DNA from: Betaproteobacteria bacterium
Lineage (GTDB): Bacteria; Pseudomonadota; Gammaproteobacteria; Burkholderiales; Rhodocyclaceae
DNA: 64,000 nucleotides
Reading direction: 5' to 3'
Assembly (NCBI GenBank): GCA_009779265.1
Contig: WREP01000003.1
Location: 1-64,000 of the forward strand
Shown: positions 9,667-24,693 of the stretch, in pieces
Layout: the number at the start of each line of letters is the position of its first letter
Position numbering within the stretch: position 1 is the stretch's first letter
Notes under the pieces: model-generated
What the model was told of the DNA's origin: nothing
What the model saw: only the letters and a program-made list of their open reading frames with translations
Database searches by the model: none
Translations under genes and position numbers: made by a program

Positions 9667-12399
9667 TCAAGCCTTCACAAACCTCAAAAAGTCGGCCAGC
9701 CGCCGCGACTCATTGGCTTCATCGTGAGGTACGAGCAGATACCGCCACGGTTTGCCGCCGACGCTCACCGTGAAGTCCGACGCGTGCTGGCACCACTGCA
9801 AGGCAGCAGCAGCTTTGGCCTGCACCTCTTGCGTGTTGATATCGCCGCGTGCTTTGGTTTCCACCATCAAGATCGTCGAGTCCGTTTCGGCGACGAAGTC
9901 CGGGATGTACTCCGGCTGCTCGGTGCCAAGCTTGTAGTAGATCTGGAACTGCCCCTTCGCAGGCTTGAACCACTTCAGGGCATCGCGCTCCAGGATGATG
10001 GCGAAGCGCCGCTCAGTGTCCGAATCGAACTTCTGTAGCGGGTACAGACAACGCGCGAAGCCCCCGAAGAGCATCTGCTTAATGCGACTGGTCTCGGTCA
10101 CGGTCTCCCGGAAGTGGTGGGCCGTCTGGCCTGCGGTGGCGGTGTAGTTGCACGGCTTGAGTTCAGTAAAGCCGCGACTGACCTGCACCTCGTACTCGGT
10201 CGCCTCTTCCCAGAAGTGTGCCATCATTTGCGCGTGGATTTCCCGTGCGATCAAGCGGCGGTCACGATCGAGGACGCTGATGGCCTCGTCCTCGGACAGA
10301 TAACCGCGCAGGTGCTGCACCATCTGGCCCGCGAGGTCGTAGAGCAGATCGGCGTGGGTGAAGTAGTCGATGTCGTCGAAGTCCACCAGCGCGTGGACGA
10401 TGTAGTCCTCCGGGCGCTGCTCCTTGATCCCGACCTCGGCGGCCAGGGTGAACTGCTCGTTGGTGCGCAGCATCTGCCCGACGATCTCGCGCTGGCCAGG
10501 CTGAAGATGGAGCTGGCTCACGTCCAGCTTGAAGGCGTGGAAGCCCGTCGTGACCTCGCCAGTCGGCACCACCGCGATGCGCGGGATGTCGATGGTCTGC
10601 TGCACCACGATCTCCGTTGTTTTCGCGACCACGGCGGACAAATCAAGAACGGGGGCTGATGCATCCACGCCCGCCAGCAATTCGCCTTGCAGCGGCTTCA
10701 ACCGCTCCGCCACCTCCGCAAGGATTTCCTTCTGCACTTCGGGTTTCAGCAACGCGCTGCTGGTGGGCACCAGATCGCGCTTGACCTCGTACTTGCCGAT
10801 GACGTCCATGACCACGCGCGCGGCCTTCTTCTCCGCCTCCGTGGTGAACACCGGTTTGGGCACGGGGACTTCCGCTCCACTGTCAGTGGCTGAAGCCCCT
10901 GTGACCACGACCGGTGCTTCCGTCAAACCGAGACGCGCCGCTGCCCCGGACTCGACCTGCACGCTGACCTTCTTGTCGTCGGCGCTCGGCGCATCGAGGA
11001 TGACCTGCTTCAGGCGAATCGGCGAGTCGCCGCGGTTGGCCTCGTCGATGATCTCCTGGAACTTATCGTGCGCGACGATGTTCAAGCGATCCACCGCCGC
11101 GACGCCCGTGCGCTTGCCGTAGGGCAGTCGCAGGCCACGCCCGATGGACTGTTCGATCAGCGTGCGGGCATTGGCGGCGCGCAACGGCACGATGGTGTAA
11201 AGGTTGGTCACGTCCCAACCTTCCTTGAGCATGTTGACGTGAATCACGATCTCGGTCGGCTCGTCCACACTCTCCACGGCCAGCAGGCGCGTGATCATCT
11301 CTTCTTCTTCCGCGCCGGTACGGCTGGAATCGACCTGAATTACCTTGCCCTGATAGCGGCCCTCGTAGAAGGCTTCCGACTCCAGAAGCGCCAGGAGTTG
11401 CCCTGCGTGCGTGGTATCGCGAGCAATGACGAGCATGAAAGGCTTGACCAGCTTGACGCTGTTCTCGCGAGCGTAGGTAAGCAGCTCGACTTTGGTCGTC
11501 TCGTGCAGGCGCACACCGTCTTCCAGCTTGGTCTTCTCGATCTCCTCGGGCGTATGCGCCTTGGCGTCGAAGTTGCGCTGGGTGACCACGGCAGGCTCCT
11601 TGACGAAGCCATCCTCCATCGCCCGCGCCAGTGGGTAGTCCATCACCACGTTCTTGAACGGCACCGGCCCCTTGCTGGATTCCACGAATGGCGTCGCCGT
11701 CACCTCCAGGCCAAACAGCGGCCTCAGCTCATTGATGGCACGCACACCCGCGCTGGCGCGGTAGCGATGCGATTCGTCCATCAGCAGCACGAGGTCAGGC
11801 AGGTTCGCAAGATGGTTGAAGTAGCTGTCGCCCAGCACTTCCTTCATCCGCTTGATGCGCGGCTCCTTGCCGCCGCGCACCTCGGAGTTGATTTTGGAGA
11901 TGTTGAAGATGTTGATGCGCACGTCGTGGGAGAAACCCTGTGGCTGATCATCCACCGCCGCGCCGGTCTGGTCGTAGTTGTCACCGGTGATGATCAGCGG
12001 CGGTTGCTGCGCGAACTCGGCAATCCCCTTGAACACGTATTTCAGCGTGTTGCGCGTGAAGTCCGTGATGAGTTTGTTGTAGATCGTCAGGTTGGGCGCG
12101 AGCACGAAGAAGTTGTTGATACCGTGCGCCAAGTGCAGATAGGTGATGAACGCACCCATCAGCCGCGTCTTGCCCACACCCGTGGCCAGCGCGAAGCACA
12201 GCGAGGGGAACTCGCGCTCAAAGTCCTCTAGCGTGGGGAACTTGGCCTTCAGCGTGGAAAGAACGGTGGCGATATCCCGTTCATGGCCCAAGAGGTCAGG
12301 CGAGGCTTCGAGCGCGCGAACCAGCCGCTTAAGAGATTCCTCCTGTGGCGGACGAAGAGACAGACGACCGGTGACGGCGTGCAGGACGCGGCTGTTCAT
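9667..12399 (-). CDS. Type III restriction enzyme Res-like DEAD/DEAH helicase with C-terminal PD-(D/E)XK motif
   Basis: CFALATGVGKTRLMGAFI (Walker A), LVLLMDESHRYR, LKEGWDVTNLYTIVPLRAANARTLIEQSIGRGLRLP, C-terminal YIPDFVAETDSTILMVETKA. Confidence 0.85.
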   Translation of the reverse strand: MNSRVLHAVTGRLSLRPPQEESLKRLVRALEASPDLLGHERDIATVLSTLKAKFPTLEDFEREFPSLCFALATGVGKTRLMGAFITYLHLAHGINNFFVLAPNLTIYNKLITDFTRNTLKYVFKGIAEFAQQPPLIITGDNYDQTGAAVDDQPQGFSHDVRINIFNISKINSEVRGGKEPRIKRMKEVLGDSYFNHLANLPDLVLLMDESHRYRASAGVRAINELRPLFGLEVTATPFVESSKGPVPFKNVVMDYPLARAMEDGFVKEPAVVTQRNFDAKAHTPEEIEKTKLEDGVRLHETTKVELLTYARENSVKLVKPFMLVIARDTTHAGQLLALLESEAFYEGRYQGKVIQVDSSRTGAEEEEMITRLLAVESVDEPTEIVIHVNMLKEGWDVTNLYTIVPLRAANARTLIEQSIGRGLRLPYGKRTGVAAVDRLNIVAHDKFQEIIDEANRGDSPIRLKQVILDAPSADDKKVSVQVESGAAARLGLTEAPVVVTGASATDSGAEVPVPKPVFTTEAEKKAARVVMDVIGKYEVKRDLVPTSSALLKPEVQKEILAEVAERLKPLQGELLAGVDASAPVLDLSAVVAKTTEIVVQQTIDIPRIAVVPTGEVTTGFHAFKLDVSQLHLQPGQREIVGQMLRTNEQFTLAAEVGIKEQRPEDYIVHALVDFDDIDYFTHADLLYDLAGQMVQHLRGYLSEDEAISVLDRDRRLIAREIHAQMMAHFWEEATEYEVQVSRGFTELKPCNYTATAGQTAHHFRETVTETSRIKQMLFGGFARCLYPLQKFDSDTERRFAIILERDALKWFKPAKGQFQIYYKLGTEQPEYIPDFVAETDSTILMVETKARGDINTQEVQAKAAAALQWCQHASDFTVSVGGKPWRYLLVPHDEANESRRLADFLRFVKA

Positions 12400-14138
12400 T
12401 ATTCGTTCTCCCCAAACAGACCGCCCTGATTCAAATTCGCAACGGGCACTTTCCTGCTCCTGGTTTTCTTGTTCGCTTCGGCGGCTGCCGAAGTCTCAAC
12501 GGGATCGGGCTTTGCCATCGGCAGGTTCGCCACGTTGAGGCTGTAGTCGTCGTGGCCCCATTCGCAGCGAGCCAGCACCATCTTCGGAATCTTCTTCAGT
12601 GTCAGGTTCGGCCAGCGTTCCGCCGCCTTGGCGGCGGTCACGCCGTGGAAGGCCGCGCAGCAGACCAGCAGGCTCCGGTCGGAGCCCACTTCGTCGGACA
12701 GCGCCTGCAACTGGTCGGCGGACAGGTTCTGCGTGGTGACGTAGATGAAATCGCGCTCGCTGGAGTGACCGTGCTGCCACCACCGCACCTCGGAGGGAGC
12801 GCAATTGAAGCCTTCCAGCTTGGCGAGCGCCTCCGCCAGCTGCGCAGCGTTGTAGGCAGGGTTGATGACGGGGTTGCCCCAACGGTCGTTGATGATCAGG
12901 CTGGGCGCGAGGTGGTAATAGCGGAATCCGCCGCCACCTTCCCAGCCGGCGCTTTCCGTGACACCGCCGCCATCCTTACCATCAATGACTTTCTGAAGGC
13001 GTGGAATGATGTGAGTGTGGCAGTGCTCACCTAGCTCAACCATGATCCATCGGCGGCCCATCTTGTGCGCGACAGCACCCGTTGTTCCAGAGCCGGCAAA
13101 TGAGTCGAGCACAATGTCACCGGGGTCGCTTGCTAGCGAGAGGACTTGCGAAATCAACTTCTCCGGCTTAGGGGTTGGGAAGTCCCCGATATCCAAGGAG
13201 CGCAATTCTCGAATGCCGTCTTGGTTGTGACCAAATTCTGCACCATCAGCCCACAGCGTTGTGGGCATGACTCCTTCCGCTGCTTCGCTAAGATACATCT
13301 TCAGTCGTGGGGCGTTCTCTCCACTTGGCCCCCAGTAAATGCGGCCCTCAGCATCTAGCTTCTTGAAGCCACTTGGATTGCGACTCCAGCAACGGTTCGG
13401 AGGAGGAAGGAGCACTTTTCCGCTCGGCGACTTCACCTCAAAGATGTTTTCGGAAACCCCGGTCTTTGCGTACTGCCTCCCGCGCGCTCCACCAACGAGA
13501 CTAATTGTCATGGTGACCGACTGCCAAGGCCCTCTTGGATCGTTGTCGGGATTGCTGTATCGCTCTGTCTGCTTTGCCGATCGACCAAATTGATTCATCC
13601 GCAGGCACGCTCGGTCTTTGGCATACACCAGAATATGTTCGTGCGCTGACGAGAAGAACTGTGCGTTGCTCCGCACCGCGTAGGACTTGTTCCAGACCAC
13701 GTTGGCGATAAAGTTGTCTCGGCCAAAGATTTCATCTGCGAGCACTTTGCAGTACTGGGCCTCGTTGTCGTCGAGCTGAATCCAGCAACTACCATCTTCC
13801 GTTAGCAGATTGCGTAGAAGGGCCAAACGCTCACGAATCAGACCCAGCCACATCGAGTGCTCTAGTCCATCCTCGTATTGAGCAAAAGCGGACCCGGTGT
13901 TGTAGGGCGGGTCGATGTAGATGCACCTAATCCGTCCAGTGAATTCATGCTCCAGCGCCTTCAGTGCAAGCAGGTTATCCCCAAAGATCAGTCGGTTGTC
14001 GAAGATGTCGCTATCCGTCACGCGATGCTCGGCGTGGTAAGACTTGCTCGGGTCCTCGAGCAGGATGCGTGGCTCCAGCTTGGGACGCTTTTCCTTCCCG
14101 ATCCAAGTAAGTTCTAGTTTTTGCTTGCTCATAGCCAA
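12399..14138 (-). CDS. Site-specific DNA methyltransferase, beta-class (type III Mod-like)
   Basis: [16 protein letters not shown] precedes [20 protein letters not shown] (DPPY before FxGxG order); stop/start overlap with Res gene. Confidence 0.88.
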
Positions 14139-14143
14139 ACACC

Positions 14144-16144
14144 TTAATTCTTATGCAAACCAAGCTTGTCAAAAAGGATGCGATTTCTGCGTGCGGCATC
14201 CTTGATCAGCTTGTCGTAGGAGAGGATTTCGATATACCCATTGCCCATCGCCAAAGGGGAGAAGTACCCCTCGTTGTCGGCAGTCCGGTGATAGCGTCCG
14301 AATACTTGCCGATGCAATGAGGGCGTTAGATCGGCAATGAGATAGCCGGTGTAACGCAGGTTGGCAGGATTGATCTGACGCCCATCGACGTCCGTAACGC
14401 CGCCCTCGGAAATTTCCCGGAATCGCTGGATAACTTGGTCCGCAGGGTCTTTGTTGTAGTCGTCCCGCCCCGGCCGTTTGAATTCAATGATGACAACGCC
14501 ACCTCCCGGCAGATTGTCCGGCTCGGCGACTCCGATTGGCGTGTCATAGAAAAGCGTGAAGATGTCCGGCTCTTTGCCAGATGTGTCTTCAAGCCCAGAG
14601 ACGCTCTTGAGCTTTTTGTCTGACGTAAGCAGCGTGTGATAGCACAGCCGCTCGTCAATCACCCAAAGATTCTGCTGCTCGAAGAAGATGTCTTTCGAAG
14701 TCATTCCCATGGGGAAGATCATCTTGTGCAAGACCCTTTCAAGCGGGTACTTGTCGTCCGTGCGCTTTTTCTTGAGGCTGTTGTTCACCAGATCAAGAAT
14801 CGTTCGGCGGTGGGCGACATAGGCAGCGAGCTGCGCCTTGCCGATTTCGTTGGCTTTCTCGGCGATTTCCTTGAATCTTTCTTGGTATTGTTCAAAGGTT
14901 TCTGTCTCGAACAGCGCGGCGACGTGCTTGGCCTCCTTGCGAACATCGTCCTCGACGGCTCGCTTCATGTGCAAAAGAGCTTCATCCAGCTTGTCTTCAG
15001 ACAGGCCCGGCTGAATCTTTTGCTCGATCATTTCTTTGTAGCGAGGATGTGTGAGCGCTCTGTACTCGGGGGCTTGTTCCACGAACTTCTCGATCTGGGC
15101 ACGCTTTTCTTCGTTCGTTGACTCCAAGTCATCCATGAGCAACGGCCGTAACGCGCCTGCAACACCCTGGTTCAGGGCCCGTCGTGAGACAAGAGTCCTC
15201 TCAAGCTCGGGCTCCTCATCGCTTTGGAAAGCGATGCGCGTGCGTTCTTGGTTGGCATGGTCATCCAGGTACTCCCCGGTAACCAGCACGATCAGGGTGT
15301 ACGGCGCCTGCTCTTCGTCAATTAGCTTCTCAGGCAGTTCCGGAAGCAGATCTCGCAGCTTGCTCGTGGTGACTTCGCGGCCGTTCGCGCACAAGTTGAG
15401 CTCATGGCGCGAGCGTCCGTCACGGTGACGATACGCCTGCAAGGCAAATGTATGCCCCGAGACCTCAAAGAACTGCTCCTGGATGTGCGCCAACACTGTT
15501 GACCGAAACAGTGTGTGCAAATCAATCGGAGCATGCCCCGGAGACTCCAGAGTCATCGGCGGGCAGGAACGAGCCGCAAAACGAATCAGGAAGTGCGCGA
15601 TGATCCGTTCAGCGATGGTTTCGGGCAGGGTGGGCCATCCAGCCCGAAACTTGTCATCCATGCCTCGCAAAGAGGTGTGCGTGCCACATACCTCTTTGAC
15701 TTCAGACGTGGAGTCGGCACCTTTCAGTTCATCCTGGATGCTGAAGTCGAACTCGCGCAGCAAAGCCTTGCCGTCGCGCTTGAAGACACTGCGGATATGT
15801 ACGGATGAGAACACCTTCAGGAAAGTGAAGCGCCCGACACCTCGGCCGCCGACCTTGACCTTTGAAAGCGTGTGCGCTTCTTGAAACGAAGCCAGGTTCT
15901 TGTCATTGAAGCCAACGCCATCATCAATGACATCGAAGCCCTCCACGACCAGAGTCCCATCCCCAGCTTGATGGGCAAGATCATTGGAGGCCACCAGCCG
16001 AATGCGAATCGCATGGTTGCTGAAGCCGTCTTGATGCTCTTCGATTGCATCGACGGCATTTGAAATGGCCTCGTAAAGAGGCATCATTGCCTTGGCTTGA
16101 GAAAGCTCCAGCCGATCCACCAGACCTTTGATGTTCGCTTGCAT
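14144..16144 (-). CDS. GHKL-family ATPase with putative C-terminal PD-(D/E)XK nuclease-like region
   Basis: [16 protein letters not shown] (N box), [12 protein letters not shown] (G1), [16 protein letters not shown] (G2); C-terminal [53 protein letters not shown] (PD...ExK). Confidence 0.75.
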
Positions 16145-17925
16145 TATTGATTGCCTCCCTGGCCCTGCTGTGCCAATGCCGCCATCAAACGGCCCTTCAC
16201 GGTTCGACAGTCCGTTTTGTTCTCGAAAACGCTACGAGCCTGCTTGTTCCACTGCACACCCTGGGCAGAACTCACAAGACGCTCGCAAACAAGATCGACC
16301 TCGCGCGAAATCGCTGTCAGTTCATCCTGGGTCAACGCCAGCGTCGGCCCGTTCTGCAACTGAAGGCGGATGAAGATGACGTGTAGAACCAACCAGGCGC
16401 CGTGAGTGAGAATCTCCCGAGCGGGGAGTGTCCCCGCTGGCAAGCCTGCGGGATCACCCTCGGCGGTGGCACGGGCGCGGACTTTCTCTACGACCACTCG
16501 GCCGATTTGGGCTATCCGCCACATTTGCCTTGCCGTGAGCGAGTCGGCGAAGAGCCGTTCGTAGGATTGGCGTAGGGGGTCGGTGGCTGATACCAACCCC
16601 TCGCGCCCAAACAGCTTCCTTTTGTCGGCTTTGGCCGCGGTCACGTAGTCCTGCCAGTCGTTCGTGGTTACGGTGCAAGCCAGGAACGGCGCGAGTTCAC
16701 GTGCGCTGAAGCAGGTTGGCGATAGCGGCGGATCGTCCTCCCCCTGCTTGACCAGATAGGTGACGCCGGCCATCTGCAAGGTCTGCTGCCACATGGTCTG
16801 ACGCTCATCGAGCGCGGCGAAATCTTCCAGTTCAACGGCATTCTGGCGGTTGCGCGATTGGGTGACTCGATCGCCAAAACCATCAGGCGCGTTCTCAAGA
16901 CAAACGAAAGTCGCCATGACTACGATGGGATGAGCATCGTAGTGGGCCAGTGGCTCGCGGGCGATCGCCCCCACCGTCTGTGCGCCGTTGATGATGGACA
17001 ACCCGCGAATGCGAAACGTCCCAGTCTGACGATGCGGGTCGCGGGGGTGCTGTTCCGTTATGGAATCGCAGAGGAAGGTGACGCCGTTATTGAAGTAGAA
17101 GAAGTGCTGTGCTTCTTGTCGGAGCGTCTCGGTCAGCCCTGCATTGACGGTGGTCGTGCCCTTGAACCGGCGAATGTTCCGATCAACCAGATGTTCTTCG
17201 TGTGCCGCCCAAAGCTCGGCGAGCCGTTTGCCGTCCATGCGCCCGTAGAACGCCCGGTAGGGTTCCTGCGTGTGGCCGAAGTCCTTCAATTCGACTTCGG
17301 CTTCTATGGGCTGGGCCGAAACCCCGTCCAGATGTAGGTCGTGCAGGGTTGTGAGCCCATAAGCATGGCACCGAAGAAAGCCCGGATTCGCGCCATTGAA
17401 CGCGCGCTCCAAGTCGGCAAAGATGTCGCGCCGATCATCGGACACCGCCGTGCCGGAATAGGCCAGCACGACTTTGATCCTGCAGACACCGCTGTTCAAG
17501 GCATTGGTGATTGCCGCTTGGCGGTTTTGCAGGGCGTTATTGAAGCGATTCCAGCGTCCTTGCAGAAGGTCGGTTACGCCATCCCGAAATTTGGATACAT
17601 CACCGAGTTCGGGCTCGCCGGTGCCCGACTCCTTGTACTTGGACTGGACCAGCCAGATCGTTTGATCCGTTGAAACGAACACCGAATCGATACCATGATC
17701 CTGGCCACCATCGATGCTGGCGGCCACGGCCTCATCCAGATTGGCGCCAGCGTCTTCGTGCAGGACGAACGCCGCGATTGCCTTGGACAGGTAGTTGCTA
17801 CGCCGAGACTCTGGAGTGTTTCCCGTCCCGGTGATTCGGTGCGCGTAGTCCGCATCAAGTTTTTGGCACAGCAGATCGAGTTCAAGGGGGCGAGCGATAA
17901 CTGTTGCCATCAGACCAGCTCCCAC
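16144..17925 (-). CDS. AIPR-family (abortive infection/phage resistance) protein
   Basis: GGQDHGIDSVFVSTDQTIWLVQSKYK (nuclease-like N-terminus), NIRRFKGTTTVNAGLTETL, HFFYFNNGVTFLCDSI, LSIINGAQTVGAI. Confidence 0.82.
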   Translation of the reverse strand: MGAGLMATVIARPLELDLLCQKLDADYAHRITGTGNTPESRRSNYLSKAIAAFVLHEDAGANLDEAVAASIDGGQDHGIDSVFVSTDQTIWLVQSKYKESGTGEPELGDVSKFRDGVTDLLQGRWNRFNNALQNRQAAITNALNSGVCRIKVVLAYSGTAVSDDRRDIFADLERAFNGANPGFLRCHAYGLTTLHDLHLDGVSAQPIEAEVELKDFGHTQEPYRAFYGRMDGKRLAELWAAHEEHLVDRNIRRFKGTTTVNAGLTETLRQEAQHFFYFNNGVTFLCDSITEQHPRDPHRQTGTFRIRGLSIINGAQTVGAIAREPLAHYDAHPIVVMATFVCLENAPDGFGDRVTQSRNRQNAVELEDFAALDERQTMWQQTLQMAGVTYLVKQGEDDPPLSPTCFSARELAPFLACTVTTNDWQDYVTAAKADKRKLFGREGLVSATDPLRQSYERLFADSLTARQMWRIAQIGRVVVEKVRARATAEGDPAGLPAGTLPAREILTHGAWLVLHVIFIRLQLQNGPTLALTQDELTAISREVDLVCERLVSSAQGVQWNKQARSVFENKTDCRTVKGRLMAALAQQGQGGNQ

Positions 17926-20783
17926 TCGATAGTGAAAAGCGTGCGCTCCTCGACCTGCTGTTGAAGTTGCATTTCAAGCTGGCTGATCAAGTCATTACGC
18001 TGCGCTTCGACTTCGTCCTGTCGGGCAAACAGTTCGCGCCGCAACTTGCTGCGCTTGCTTTCCAGTTCACGCTGTTTCTTCTGCCATGACAGCTTTTCGT
18101 CCAGCGTCGGCGAGGTCGCGGCTGTGCGGCGCACTTCTTTGATCTCGCGGTCGATCTCCTTGATCTCCTGTTCCAGACCGAGCTTCAGATCGTCCGCCCA
18201 GGCGTCGAGCTTCTGGACTTCCTGCTCGAAGTAACCGAGGTTGCGCTCGTTGACGTCTCGCAGGAGTGCGGTCTTGCGGGCTTCCGCATCGGCCAGCAAG
18301 GTGGCATCGGGGGCATTGAACAGGCTTGCTGCGTGTGTGGTCGCGGGTAGGCGCAGCAGTTTTTCCGGGTCTTCTTCTGCCAGCACGACGCCGTCGGTAG
18401 TACCCGCGGCAACCAGCAGATGTTGCTCCTGGTTGCCGAGTGTCTCGACAGTGACCAGCTTTACTGTGAGCCATCCGGCCTTGCCGCGGTAGGCTTCAAG
18501 CGTGCTGATCTTTGAGCCGTAGGCGTTGTAATCGAAGGCGAGACGAGCCACGTCGAGTACACGAGCCTTGGCTTGCTCGATGCCCCACCGCGCCAGCGGA
18601 TGATTGATGCGGTACAGGTGCGCGTCGCCAGAGCGGCGGGGCAACTCGTAGCGCCCCAATTCGATGTCCGCGAGGTCGCTGCGCTCGATTCCAGTCGGCA
18701 TGTAGTGGAGATGGAAGCCATCGTGATCAAACACTGCGCAATGGAGCAGCTCGGCACGAGTCAAATCCATCAGCATGTGCTCGAATCGGTTACGCGCGTT
18801 GCGGCTGTCGTCGGCCCGCACGCGCAGCTTCTCCTGCACCTCCTCATCAAAGTTCTCAAGCAATGCCTGACGGGTCTTGACCATCGCCTCGTTGATCTCC
18901 CCTGAGAGATCGAGTCGGAGTTGCTCGAAACTGGACTTGATTTCTTCAGGCTCTCGGCAGTTCTGGTAGATCTCAGCGATACGCCGCTCGAAATCGACGC
19001 CTGAACCGATGGCACCCAGCACTTCGTCGCTGGCCCCAAAAACGCCCTCGAAAAGCTGGAACTTCTGCGCCAGCAATTCGTAGACGCGCTTGTCCGCCTC
19101 ATTGCTGAGATCGACGAAGTTCACTACCACTACGTCGTGCTTCTGTCCGTAGCGGTGACAGCGACCAATGCGTTGCTCGATACGCTGCGGATTCCAGGGC
19201 AGGTCGTAGTTGATCACGAGCGAGCAGAACTGAAGGTTGATGCCTTCGGCTCCGGCTTCGGTGGCAATCATGACCTTGCCGCGCTCCTTGAAGTGCTCGA
19301 CCAGTGCCGCACGGGTGTCGGCGGTCTTGGAGCCGGTGATGCGGTCAGTGCCTTCGTGGCGTTTGAGCCAGTCCTTGTAGATTGCCTGCGCACGCTGGTC
19401 GCTATTGGTGCCGTTGAAGAGCACGATGCCGTCGCCGTATGGCGTGTCAGCCAGCAAATTGAGGAGGTATTCCTGCGTACGCTTGGACTCGGTGAAGATG
19501 ATGGCCTTCCGGGCCGCGCCCAACCGGTCCAGTTCGGCGAAGGCACGATCCAGCGCGGTGAGCAGCGCCTTGCCCTTGGCGTTGTCGCGGATGCTGGTGG
19601 CCAGCGCCTTGAAGTGGCGAAGCTCTTCGATTTCCTGCGCGATGGCATTCCGCTCTGAGCGGTTCGGTGCCGCAGAAGCTGATTCTTGGTCGCTCCACTC
19701 ATCAGCGGTTTCGTCCAGCGATTCGTAATCCTCATCGAGTTCTTCAGCCAGATCGGGAACTTCGGTGGTTTCGTCGAGCACCCCCTGGAGGCGCTTGGCC
19801 ATCGTCTCCAACGCACCCGCGATCGCGTGCGTGCTGGACGCGAGCAGCTTCCATAGCACCAGTGAAATCAGCTGGCGCTGTCCCTCGGGCATGGCCTTCA
19901 GGTTGGGGCGACGCAAGTAATCAGCGACAAGTCTGGACAGTTCTTGCTCTTCGCTTGAGGGTGTGAACTCTTGGATGATGGCCTTGCGCGCCGTATACGA
20001 CACATAAGGCTGAACCTGTTTGCGCAGAGTGCGCTTGCAGATGGGAGCCAGTCGGTCACGCAGGCCGTTGAAGGCCTGTTCCCGGCCAGTAAATTGCGAG
20101 CGAAAGCTGTCTAGGTCTCCGAACACGCGGTCATCGATGAAGCTGACCAGCCCATAGAGTTCGAGCAATGAGTTCTGCAATGGCGTTGCGGTCAGAAGCA
20201 CCTTGGAGTGAACGTGCGACAACGCCTCCTTGAGAGTCCTGGCAATGACGTTGCTGGTCTTGTAGACGTTGCGCAGGCGATGTGCTTCGTCGAGGACGAC
20301 CAAGTCCCAGTCGATGCTCTTGACATCGTCAGCCTTGGACTTGGCGAACTGGTAGGAACAGATGACCGGGCCAGAGGTAAAGAGGAACGGGTTCTGTCGA
20401 TCCTGCTTGCGGATTGCGTTGTAGCTTTTGGCTTCGAGAATCAGCCCTTGCAGGCCGAACTTGTCCTGCAACTCCTGGTGCCACTGCTTGCGCAGGTTGG
20501 CCGGGACGATGATGAGAATCTTGCGCCGCCGCTCCGCCCAGCGTTGCGAAATCACCAAGCCCGCTTCAATGGTCTTGCCGAGGCCCACTTCGTCAGCAAG
20601 AAGCACACCGTGCGAAAGGGGATTGCGGCATGCGAAGAGGGCCGCATCGACCTGATGCGGATTAAGATCAACCTGCGAGTCGACCAGTGTTGAGGCCAGC
20701 GATTCCACGGAGTCGCCTGCCGCGCGGCGTGTCAGAAGCCATGCGTAATACTGGCTTTGATATTGCGTAAGGGGCTGTTGCAT
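17910..20783 (-). CDS. SNF2/RapA-like superfamily 2 helicase
   Basis: GVLLADEVGLGKTIEAGLVI, DLVVLDEAHRLRN, VMIATEAGAEGINLQFCSLVINYDLPWNPQRIEQRIGRCHRYGQ; start taken at MQQPLTQY (ORF track extends to 20912), overlapping the fic stop as TGATG. Confidence 0.88.
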   Translation of the reverse strand: MQQPLTQYQSQYYAWLLTRRAAGDSVESLASTLVDSQVDLNPHQVDAALFACRNPLSHGVLLADEVGLGKTIEAGLVISQRWAERRRKILIIVPANLRKQWHQELQDKFGLQGLILEAKSYNAIRKQDRQNPFLFTSGPVICSYQFAKSKADDVKSIDWDLVVLDEAHRLRNVYKTSNVIARTLKEALSHVHSKVLLTATPLQNSLLELYGLVSFIDDRVFGDLDSFRSQFTGREQAFNGLRDRLAPICKRTLRKQVQPYVSYTARKAIIQEFTPSSEEQELSRLVADYLRRPNLKAMPEGQRQLISLVLWKLLASSTHAIAGALETMAKRLQGVLDETTEVPDLAEELDEDYESLDETADEWSDQESASAAPNRSERNAIAQEIEELRHFKALATSIRDNAKGKALLTALDRAFAELDRLGAARKAIIFTESKRTQEYLLNLLADTPYGDGIVLFNGTNSDQRAQAIYKDWLKRHEGTDRITGSKTADTRAALVEHFKERGKVMIATEAGAEGINLQFCSLVINYDLPWNPQRIEQRIGRCHRYGQKHDVVVVNFVDLSNEADKRVYELLAQKFQLFEGVFGASDEVLGAIGSGVDFERRIAEIYQNCREPEEIKSSFEQLRLDLSGEINEAMVKTRQALLENFDEEVQEKLRVRADDSRNARNRFEHMLMDLTRAELLHCAVFDHDGFHLHYMPTGIERSDLADIELGRYELPRRSGDAHLYRINHPLARWGIEQAKARVLDVARLAFDYNAYGSKISTLEAYRGKAGWLTVKLVTVETLGNQEQHLLVAAGTTDGVVLAEEDPEKLLRLPATTHAASLFNAPDATLLADAEARKTALLRDVNERNLGYFEQEVQKLDAWADDLKLGLEQEIKEIDREIKEVRRTAATSPTLDEKLSWQKKQRELESKRSKLRRELFARQDEVEAQRNDLISQLEMQLQQQVEERTLFTIEWELV

Positions 20784-21844
20784 CAGCTTTCCCCCTCTAC
20801 CTTGACTTGTTTCCACTTCGCTCCTCGCCCCTTGCCCGTGGACTCGATCAATCCCTCTGACTTCATCGCCCGCAGCACCAACCGCACCATGTCTCGGCTC
20901 ACGCCCGGGCAAGCCTCCTCAATCTCGGAAATCGAAAACGGCTGACTGCGCCCCAGGACTTCTGCCCGCACCCGGTCACCTTTGCTACCACGTCCCCGCT
21001 CGATGGTGCCGACACGCTCCTCGAATTCACGGTAGGCCCGTAGCAAGGCTCCCCAGAAATAGTCGAGCCAGGGTTTGACGTCATGCTGACCCTGATGCCA
21101 CCCCTGCGAGCTGGCTTCCAGCGTCTCGTAATAGCCCTCCTTTGTTTCCTCGAAGATGCGTTCCAAACTGATGTAACGGCCCACGGCATAGTCGAAGTGG
21201 TAAAGCAGCAGCAGGGTCAACAAGCGGGACATACGGCCATTGCCGTCCGGGAAGGGATGGATGCACAGGAAGTCGAGCATGGCCAGTGGCACAAGCACCA
21301 GCGGGTCGGCCAGGTGCTGATCCAGCGCGGAGGCATAGCGCCCGGCCAGATCGGCCATAGCCATGTGCGTGAGGTGCGCAGCGACCGGCTGGAAGCGCAG
21401 ACGCGAGGTGCCGTCCGGGTGACGCTCGATGATGTCGTTATTGGTGGCCTTCCAGCGCCCGCCCGCCTGCGGCATGTAGCGGTACAGCAGGGTATGCAAT
21501 TGCAGCACTACGCCCTCGCTGAAAGGCATGTGCGTGGCGGACTCGTGGATCAGCGCCAGCGCATCACGATAGCCGGCGATCTCCTGTTCCGAGCGGCTCT
21601 TTGGCGTTGCATTGCGAATGACCAGGGACTTCAAGCGCGAGGGCGCAACGACAACGCCTTCCAGCCGGTTCGACGACTCGGTGGATTCGACTACCGCGAT
21701 CTGGCGTAGGCCTTTGAGGGCTTCAGGCGACTGCGCGGCATAGAGCTGTTGCTTGCCCTGGTACTCGCCCAGGGAGCGCAACGTGGCAGCCTGTGTACCA
21801 TCGAAGCGAAGCGCGGCAAGGTACTCGGGTGTGAGCGAGTGCAT
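20783..21844 (-). CDS. Fic family protein with C-terminal winged-helix region
   Basis: CIHPFPDGNGRMSRLLTLLLL (Fic HPFxDGNGR motif); C-terminal PFSISEIEEACPGVSRDMVRLVLRAMKSEGLIESTGKGRGAKWK (wHTH-like). Confidence 0.9.
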   Translation of the reverse strand: MHSLTPEYLAALRFDGTQAATLRSLGEYQGKQQLYAAQSPEALKGLRQIAVVESTESSNRLEGVVVAPSRLKSLVIRNATPKSRSEQEIAGYRDALALIHESATHMPFSEGVVLQLHTLLYRYMPQAGGRWKATNNDIIERHPDGTSRLRFQPVAAHLTHMAMADLAGRYASALDQHLADPLVLVPLAMLDFLCIHPFPDGNGRMSRLLTLLLLYHFDYAVGRYISLERIFEETKEGYYETLEASSQGWHQGQHDVKPWLDYFWGALLRAYREFEERVGTIERGRGSKGDRVRAEVLGRSQPFSISEIEEACPGVSRDMVRLVLRAMKSEGLIESTGKGRGAKWKQVKVEGES

Positions 21845-21867
21845 GGAAATGTAAGCCCAGGCTGTCT

Positions 21868-22049
21868 AAATGGGGGGAATCATAGCCGCTAAATGGGGTA
21901 TTGTCTCTAAAAATGCCTCATTGCCAGTGTTTGACTACCCCATTTCCTGAACGTTGGACCGGTCGCGAGGGGCTGGCATGGCTGACCGGGGATGAAATGG
22001 GCGACATGAATCCAAAAAATGGGGCAGTCAATGAACAATTGCCCCATTT
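21868..22049. promoter_or_regulatory. Cluster of AAATGGGG motifs incl. two 10-bp inverted repeats upstream of fic operon
   Basis: AAATGGGG at 21868-21875, 21891-21898, 22017-22024; CCCCATTT at 21938-21945 and 22042-22049; IRs AAATGGGGTA (21891-21900)/TACCCCATTT (21936-21945) and AAATGGGGCA (22017-22026)/TGCCCCATTT (22040-22049). Confidence 0.6.
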
Positions 22050-22194
22050 ATTTCATTGCTTACCCCATTGCCTGCGCCCAGCCTTCGGCAAAGGCAAATG
22101 GCAAGGGAACGGCACTCAAGGGACAACGGCCCTATCCAGAAAAGGAAAAGGCCACTCCTGTCCATTCGTTCTGCAACACCCGGCTAACTCTTCC

Positions 22195-23405
22195 CTATGC
22201 CGCGCCACTGTCTTCCACCGCACTCAGATAGTCCGCCCAGTCCTGCAACAGCGTCCTTCTCTGATCCAGCAACAACGCCTTGTTGTACGTCGCCCGAACC
22301 TTGTTGCTTTCCACGTGGGCAAGCTGCCGCTCAATCGCATCAGGCCGGTATCCATTCTCGTTGGCCCAGGTCGAAAAGGTCGTCCGCCAGCAATGTGGCG
22401 TCGTGCCCCGGCCCAGGTTCATGTCACGCATCGCGTAGGTCAGCCGGTTGGGTGTGGTGAATCCCTTGCCGCTCCGGTGTGGGAACAGATAGCGCCCGCC
22501 ACTCGTGATGCGCTGCAAGTCTTTCAGCACTGCTATGGCCTGCGTAGACAACGGGCTGACATGGTCGCGCCGTGCTTTCATCTTCGCCGCAGGCCGACGC
22601 CACAGCGCATCGTCAAAGTCGAACTCGTCCCACTCGGCATCCGCCGCTTCCCCTGGACGGCAGGCGGTCAGCGCAATCAGCCGCAGGCACAACGAGGTTT
22701 CGGGATAGCCCCGGTAGCCGCGCAACTCCTGATAAAACCTTTGGATTTGCTCTCGCGTCATCGCCGCCTTACTCTCGCTGAACGGCACGCGCAGCAGCCC
22801 GCGCAGGCTGGGAATTGGATTTGCCTCGACCAGACCCCGCACCACCGCGAACTCGAAGATGGCCGAAAGATCGCCTTTGACGTGAATGGCGGCCCACGCG
22901 CCATGCGCTTTGCATTCCTCCAGCAGCGGGCGAATCTGCTTCACGCCAATGTCGCTCATCGGCATCCCATCGAATTTGGGCGACAGGTACTTCCTGATGC
23001 GGGACTCTTTCGTGCGATAGGAACTGAGCGCAAAGACTGGCTTGATCTCGGCCAGGTACGCTTTCGCCACCTTGGCGAACGAGCTTTCACGAGCGCGCTT
23101 GCGTTCCTCCAGTGCTTCCAGGTTACGCTGCTTGACCTGCTGCCGCTCATGCGCAGGGTGGATACCTTGCTTGACCAAGGCACGCGCTTTCTCGCGGGCA
23201 GCACGCGCCTCTGCAAGGCTTACTTAGGGAAAGCCGCCGATGGAAAGAGGTTCTCCTTGCCTTGCAAGCGGTACTTCCACCGCCAGAGCTTGCCGCCGGT
23301 GGGTTTGACCAGCAGGAACAAGCCCCCACCGTCTGAAAGTTTCCAGTCTCGATCAGTTGATTTGGCCGACCTGATCTTGGCGTCGGTGAGTAGGTTCTAG
23401 GGCAT
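22195..23405 (-). pseudogene. P4-type tyrosine integrase (DUF4102 N-terminus), disrupted
   Basis: Catalytic part intact (LTACRPGEAADAEWDEFDF, TPHCWRTTFSTWANENGYRPDAIERQLAHVESNKVRATYNKA); N-terminus reads MP*NLLTDAKIRSAKSTDRDWKLSDGGGLFLLVKPTGGKLWRWKYRLQGKENLF then frame is lost and a further stop appears before VSLAEARAAREKAR. Confidence 0.8.
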
Positions 23406-23601: not shown

Positions 23602-24693
23602 TCAGACGTTGAACAAAAAGTTCAGCACATCCCCATCCTTGACCACATATTCCTTGCCTTCGGCGCGCATTTTGCCGGCTTCCTTGGCGCCGTGTTCGCC
23701 CTTGCAGGCGATGAAGTCGTCGTAAGCGATGGTCTGGGCGCGGATGAAGCCGCGTTCGAAGTCGGTGTGGATGACGCCGGCCGCCTGCGGCGCGGTGTCG
23801 CCGGCGTGGATGGTCCACGCCCGCACTTCCTTGACGCCAGCGGTGAAGTAGGTGCGCAGGCCGAGCAGATCGTAGCCGGCGCGGATCAGGCGGTCGAGGC
23901 CGGGTTCGTGCAGGCCCATGGATTCGAGGAATTCAAGCTTGTCGTCGGCGTCGAGATCGGCGATTTCGGCCTCGATGGCGGCGCACAGCGCCACCACCCC
24001 GGCGCCCTCGGCGGCGGCATGGGTGCGCACGGCGTCGAGGTGGGGATTGTTCTCGAAGCCGTCCTCGGCGACGTTGGCGGCGTAGAGCACCGGCTTGGCG
24101 GTGATCAGGCAGAAGGGCTTGAGGCTGGCCCATTCTTCCTTGGCCAGATCGAGGGCGCGCACCGGCTTGCCCTGATCGAGCTGGGCGAAGCATTTGTCGA
24201 GCACGGCGACGAGAATTTTGGCCTCCTTGTCGCCGGCACTGGCCGGGCGGCGATAGCGGTTGAGCGCTTTCTCGACGGTGGCCATGTCGGCCAGCGCCAA
24301 TTCGGTGTCGATGATTTCGATGTCGCGCAACGGATCGACGTTGCCCGAGACATGCACCACGTTGTCGTCAGAGAAGCAGCGCACGACATGGACGATGGCG
24401 TCGGTTTCGCGGATATTGGCGAGAAACTGGTTGCCCAGGCCCTCGCCCTTGGAAGCGCCGGCAACCAGGCCGGCGATATCGACGAATTCGACAATGGCCG
24501 GCTGCACCTTCTGCGGCTTGACGATTTCGGAGAGGGCCTTGAGGCGCGGGTCCGGCACCTCGACGATGCCGACATTCGGCTCGATGGTGCAGAAGGGGTA
24601 ATTGGCCGCTTCAATGCCGGCCTTGGTCAGGGCGTTGAAGAGTGTGGATTTGCCGACATTGGGCAAGCCGACGATGCCGCATTTGAGAGACAT
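23602..24693 (-). CDS. ychF: Redox-regulated ATPase/GTPase YchF
   Basis: [51 protein letters not shown]; start trimmed from ORF track to this Met. Confidence 0.95.

Follow-up and report, generated by a model that had tools for sequence, protein, structure and literature searches.

Fic proteins are known mainly as AMPylating toxins or effectors. One of them, CccR from Yersinia pseudotuberculosis, is a Fic-HTH protein that represses its own promoter, as demonstrated by a lacZ fusion, EMSA, footprinting and ITC (PMC9755527). Its operator is a single pair of inverted 10-bp boxes near the -35 and -10 elements, AGATAATCAT-N26-ATGATAATCT, and the protein is a T6SS effector that is not described as heading a defense operon (PMC9755527). 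CbFic2 from Coxiella burnetii combines a Fic domain with a C-terminal winged helix-turn-helix (wHTH) that binds DNA, and this binding stimulates (de)AMPylation; no specific operator was identified for it, and its reported target is histone H3 (PMC10628234). The anti-phage protein SoFic is described as an AMPylator whose toxicity is countered by a small antitoxin encoded downstream (PMC12249575). Little is understood so far about the mechanisms that silence defense islands and activate them. The WYL-wHTH regulators BrxR and CapW accompany many unrelated defense systems (PMC9122601, PMC9122588), and BrxR acts as a repressor at its own promoter region, where it binds 11-bp inverted repeats separated by a 5-bp spacer (PMC9122601). 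Another example is RptR, the repressor of a restriction-modification (RM) island with several direct repeats in the promoter, whose site is conserved together with the regulator (PMC12255303). In a limited literature search, no Fic protein was described as regulating a defense operon, and earlier work may exist.

The locus described here lies in a 64-kb stretch of DNA, referred to as the window, and carries a fic gene (20783-21844, minus strand) encoding a class II Fic protein with a C-terminal winged helix, the proposed binder of a repeat array located upstream of the gene. The protein contains the catalytic motif HPFPDGNGR (fitting HPFx[D/E]GN[G/K]R) and the N-terminal inhibitory motif SNRLEG (fitting [S/T]xxxE[G/N]). 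Fic is the only Pfam domain found (6.6e-13), with no WYL domain, and residues 22-342 match the SoFic profile of PADLOC (7.6e-36). The preliminary description had proposed a wHTH-like C-terminus, which agrees with the predicted structure: residues ~287-345 (20810-20986) form three helices and two strands with a local pLDDT of 72-88 in the AF2 model, whose mean pLDDT over the whole protein is 54 and whose Fic part is of low confidence. A solved chain, 8UQU, is near-identical to this Fic and spans the winged-helix region. Within the Fic clade, the sequence of the recognition helix (SRDMVR) hardly varies.

This locus resembles CccR in its class II Fic domain with a C-terminal HTH and in the inverted boxes near its own -35 and -10 elements. 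By arithmetic, the 70 A separating the recognition helices of the CccR dimer is close to the 21-22 bp steps of the present array. However, neither the box nor the geometry is matched, as AAATGGGGTAAT recurs here in 21-22 bp steps, compared with AGATAATCAT-N26 in CccR, and this locus has four half-sites, a distal cluster and exchangeable defense genes behind fic. CbFic2 shares the Fic domain and the C-terminal wHTH, with DNA binding shown there and predicted here. With SoFic, the protein shares the Fic AMPylator family and the profile match, but its clade lies far from SoFic in sequence and often heads multi-gene RM cargo. With BrxR and CapW, the likeness is a functional analogy only: a wHTH regulator gene stands in front of diverse defense systems, but its partner domain is WYL in those proteins and Fic here. 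The parallel with RptR is a repressor of an RM island, predicted in the present case, and promoter repeats conserved with the regulator, although RptR is a small unrelated protein with the site TAGCTA, and no Fic appears in that work (PMC12255303). BrxR and RptR would represent the same strategy as the Fic array in other protein families.

The repeat array and the predicted fic promoter

The sequence AAATGGGG occurs upstream of fic in the five exact copies first noticed there, at 21868-21875 (+), 21891-21898 (+), 21938-21945 (-), 22017-22024 (+) and 22042-22049 (-). All of them fall within 182 bp (21868-22049), and no further copy exists anywhere in the 64-kb window. The number itself is ordinary for 64 kb (5 against a shuffle mean of 2.06, with at least 5 in 7 of 100 shuffles); the packing is exceptional, with about 0.006 copies expected in such a stretch, corresponding by arithmetic to P ~1e-13 for that stretch. 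The 2.5-Mb genome holds 41 copies, and the array upstream of fic is the only tight cluster among the copies listed. A genome-wide motif search likewise found no second comparable paired array. Two 10-bp inverted repeats, previously reported as perfect, are both exact: 21891-21900/21936-21945 (N35) and 22017-22026/22040-22049 (N13).

The repeat is real and not random, but alignment of orthologous upstream regions showed that its conserved unit is longer than first noted, namely the 12-bp half-site AAATGGGGTAAT. An imperfect copy, CAATGAGGCATT (21912-21923), that the earlier listing had missed completes a proximal cluster of four half-sites. On the fic strand, these are A forward, B forward, C reverse and D reverse, which begin about -100, -78, -57 and -35 from the fic ATG in steps of ~21-22 bp. 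Half-site A (AAATGGGGTAGT; 21934-21945, minus strand) marks the upstream edge of the cluster, and B (that same imperfect copy, minus strand; consensus TAATGAGGTATT) lies just upstream of the -35 element. C (AAATGGGGTATT; 21891-21902, plus strand) is reversed relative to fic and falls within the -35/-10 spacer, while D (AAATGGGGGGAA; 21868-21879, plus strand), also reversed, overlaps the transcription start predicted near 21872. The N35 pair, exact as it is, probably represents no unit of its own and corresponds to sites A and C of this cluster. The near copies reported earlier are present as well, at 21994-22003 and 22061-22070, but they are assigned to a second, distal cluster (21995-22006 and 22059-22070).

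The predicted fic promoter is a sigma-70-like element, GAGACA-17-TATGAT (21907 to 21879, minus strand), with a 9/12 match and a 17-bp spacer. It is the sole promoter-like element in the scanned region, where one was found and 0.6 were expected. Its -35 element GAGACA (21902-21907) and -10 element TATGAT (21879-21884), both on the minus strand, are kept in the group-1 orthologs. The gene has repeated boxes over the -35 and -10 elements of its own predicted promoter. D is the most invariant half-site among the orthologs, and in the window it has one extra base next to the -10 element compared with most of them. The proximal sites are not taken to form an RNA attenuator, since three of them, A-C, precede the predicted start. 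A check for small genes in the gap upstream of fic found just short ORFs (up to 70 aa) or ORFs overlapping int or fic.

The position of these sites bears on the direction of regulation. Fic could bind the array as an activator or a bistable switch instead of a simple repressor, an arrangement that would suit the weak -35 element (GAGACA) and the location of A, B and the distal cluster upstream of it, where activator sites often lie. This is quite unlikely, as C is placed between -35 and -10 and the best-conserved site, D, covers the start, a layout that suits occlusion, and CccR acts as a repressor (PMC9755527). Repression is thus the sign that we infer for the array.

Conservation of the array and its association with fic

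The ortholog set comprised 80 loci from one scan, with Fic 79-97% identical, or 81 loci with the window. At least three half-sites are present in the 130 bp upstream of fic in 78 of the 81 loci, with a mean of 3.53 compared with 0.27 in dinucleotide shuffles; for 449 other ORFs of these loci, the corresponding upstream mean is 0.018. The more divergent group 2 has an average conservation of 0.89 in half-site columns and 0.60 in spacers (P 2e-12). Group 1, where conservation in part reflects recent common descent, has values of 0.92 and 0.80 (P 3e-7). Conservation of the motif upstream of orthologous fic genes, proposed earlier as a check, is seen at fixed positions in nearly all 80 orthologous loci.

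Because the loci were chosen by Fic similarity, co-occurrence of the array with fic arises partly by construction, and scans blind to fic were run to reduce this bias. The DNA pattern ACCCCNWTN{6,13}ATTACCCCATT was searched in 399 genomes of the order and matched in five, in each case within 100 bp upstream of a fic homolog at least 77% identical. The pattern is strict, recovering five of the 14 genomes among the 399 with a close fic (at least 75% identity), and it misses the array of the window because of the extra base between the -10 element and D. In a class-wide scan, none of 369 genomes had the array without fic. Plasmid DNA and E. coli gave no match, two pattern matches in viral contigs without fic were judged to be chance, and no Fic relatives were confirmed in viral contigs.

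Related arrays also accompany distant members of the family. Fic-wHTH homologs of ~30% identity have arrays of a related half-site, AAATGGGTGTA, with 10-bp steps just upstream of the start. One of them is a second Fic-wHTH gene in the genome of the window (L129, G000:C3:85500-90000; 33% identical), whose AAATGGGTGTA array closely precedes the start, with two reverse sites followed by two forward ones; this paired pattern occurs once genome-wide. Homologs of 45-51% identity lack the array, and at least two of these (L097 and L099) appear, from their upstream sequence, to sit inside operons behind hsdS-like ends. Separately, inspection by eye showed some Firmicute Fic-wHTH homologs (L087-L091) with repeats of their own ahead of fic, inverted or direct and unrelated in sequence, such as GTATCTTGATCATTT/AAATGATCAAGATAC in L091.

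These observations help to identify the putative binder. An unlinked host transcription factor might recognize AAATGGGGTAAT and control the island in place of Fic, since mobile islands do carry operators for host factors. Such a factor is very unlikely, however, given that the array layout is constant in Beta-, Gamma- and Alphaproteobacterial hosts and that all five arrays recovered in the blind scan were upstream of fic. Fic is strongly favored as the predicted binder over an unlinked regulator because fic is the only constant neighbor among diverse hosts, and because the genome has no other comparable paired array and distant Fic-wHTH genes have related ones.

Exchangeable neighbors and the distal cluster

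The genes on either side of fic vary between loci. In the window, the cargo behind fic (9667-20912, minus strand) includes a SNF2/DrmD-like helicase, an AIPR/AbiU-like protein, a HATPase protein and type III Mod and Res. Across loci, the first gene behind fic belongs to 40 different families, and the cargo ranges over type I RM, type IIG with SNF2/PLD, type III RM, and DruE-like and DrmD-like proteins; the commonest first gene encodes a ~1755-aa DruE-like SNF2 protein (L005:2856-8123 and 15 other loci). In 56 of 78 loci, the gene after fic runs in the same direction and lies at most 200 bp away. About a quarter of the loci have a first gene that is distant or oppositely oriented, so co-regulation of the cargo with fic is not universal.

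This exchange bears on the cargo itself as a source of the repeats. Promoter-site methylation can control RM genes, and the repeats could accordingly serve the type III methyltransferase, or a different enzyme of the cargo, as recognition or memory sites. This reading has next to no chance of being correct and was rejected because the cargo is exchanged, unrelated enzymes replacing one another while the array remains unchanged.

A tyrosine integrase gene, int, adjoins fic upstream in ~30 loci; it is ~95% identical in many loci and absent in others. The repeats might be arm-type or recombination sites of this integrase, its frequent position next to fic and the mostly int-linked distal cluster being in favor. 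Nevertheless, the proximal array is kept where no int lies between ychF and fic (e.g., L008, L033, L041, L048, L053 and L080), as well as in group 2, which lacks this int, and its position is fixed to the start of fic and not to int. In L053, ychF ends 101 bp before fic, and the array fits the remaining gap. Integrase arm sites are thus extremely unlikely and were rejected because the array stays with fic where int is absent. Since the genes behind fic change wholesale and the integrase can be missing, fic is the one constant partner of the array, and Fic with its predicted operator is the constant front end of an exchangeable cargo.

The integrase gene of the window (22195-23405, minus strand) looks broken: compared with the L004 ortholog, it has a stop at codon 3, and the frame changes near residues 54-64; the L004 copy is open and encodes 403 aa. 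In the window, the island lies downstream of ychF (23602-24693, minus strand), which is upstream of fic in 31 of the 80 fetched loci, and the site after ychF looks like an integration hotspot.

The distal cluster, ~125 bp upstream of the proximal one, repeats its layout and steps with sites E, F and G and a weak H, and was found in 31 distinct sequences, mostly from int-linked loci. E (CAATGGGGTAAG; 22059-22070, minus strand) forms its outer edge, and F (AAATGGGGCAAT; 22038-22049, minus strand) and G (AAATGGGGCAGT; 22017-22028, plus strand) are the two arms of a terminator-like hairpin. The possible half-site H (AAATGGGCGACA; 21995-22006, plus strand) is the weakest member, with a similar CGCCCATTTC stretch in other loci.

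A T6 run follows the F/G pair (22017/22042) in the int/fic direction, and the hairpin stem is 90% paired across 24 loci. These features would fit a palindrome (22017-22049) that is only the intrinsic terminator of int, with an incidental likeness to the proximal half-sites. Such a restricted role is rather unlikely: a third site, E, is conserved alongside at the same 21-bp step and with the same half-site consensus, the F/G covariation count does not clearly exceed shuffles (33/500), and the proximal sites, mostly upstream of the start and not transcribed from the fic promoter, would be left unexplained. In the operator reading, the F/G hairpin, whose covariation is weak and neither clearly favors an RNA role nor argues it away, may serve as the terminator of the upstream integrase gene in a second role, and the distal cluster may raise the local concentration of Fic.

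A proposed Fic autorepressor of defense cargo

An autorepressing Fic that also controls the exchangeable defense cargo very probably uses the array as its operator, a reading supported by the precedent of CccR as a Fic-HTH autorepressor. In the proposed mechanism, a dimer or higher oligomer of Fic would bind the AAATGGGGTAAT half-sites through its C-terminal winged helix, the centers of the four half-sites being 21-22 bp, or about two helical turns, apart. Bound at A-D, Fic would extend from just ahead of the -35 element across the -35/-10 spacer to the transcription start, and its occupancy would block RNA polymerase. Repression would reach the defense genes, presumably co-transcribed with fic, because they lie behind it on the same strand, often overlapping or tens of bases away. 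Expression would be low at steady state but high while Fic is scarce, for instance as the island enters a new host.

A broader scenario is more speculative and probably goes beyond the actual function of the locus. Fic and its 100-bp operator could form a portable switch, with unrelated defense systems inserted behind it at a hotspot that often directly follows ychF and with DNA-bound Fic kept in a repressor role. The AMPylation or oligomeric state of Fic might then change upon infection or nucleotide stress, releasing the operon and freeing a toxic AMPylator, which would couple RM expression to an abortive-infection response.

The array offers a DNA signature for locating such islands. If the proposed regulation is true, one switch would serve many interchangeable defense systems, and an AMPylation enzyme would be tied to the control of restriction-modification. 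Fic would then be a further general front-end repressor of exchangeable defense operons, alongside the WYL and RptR-type regulators.
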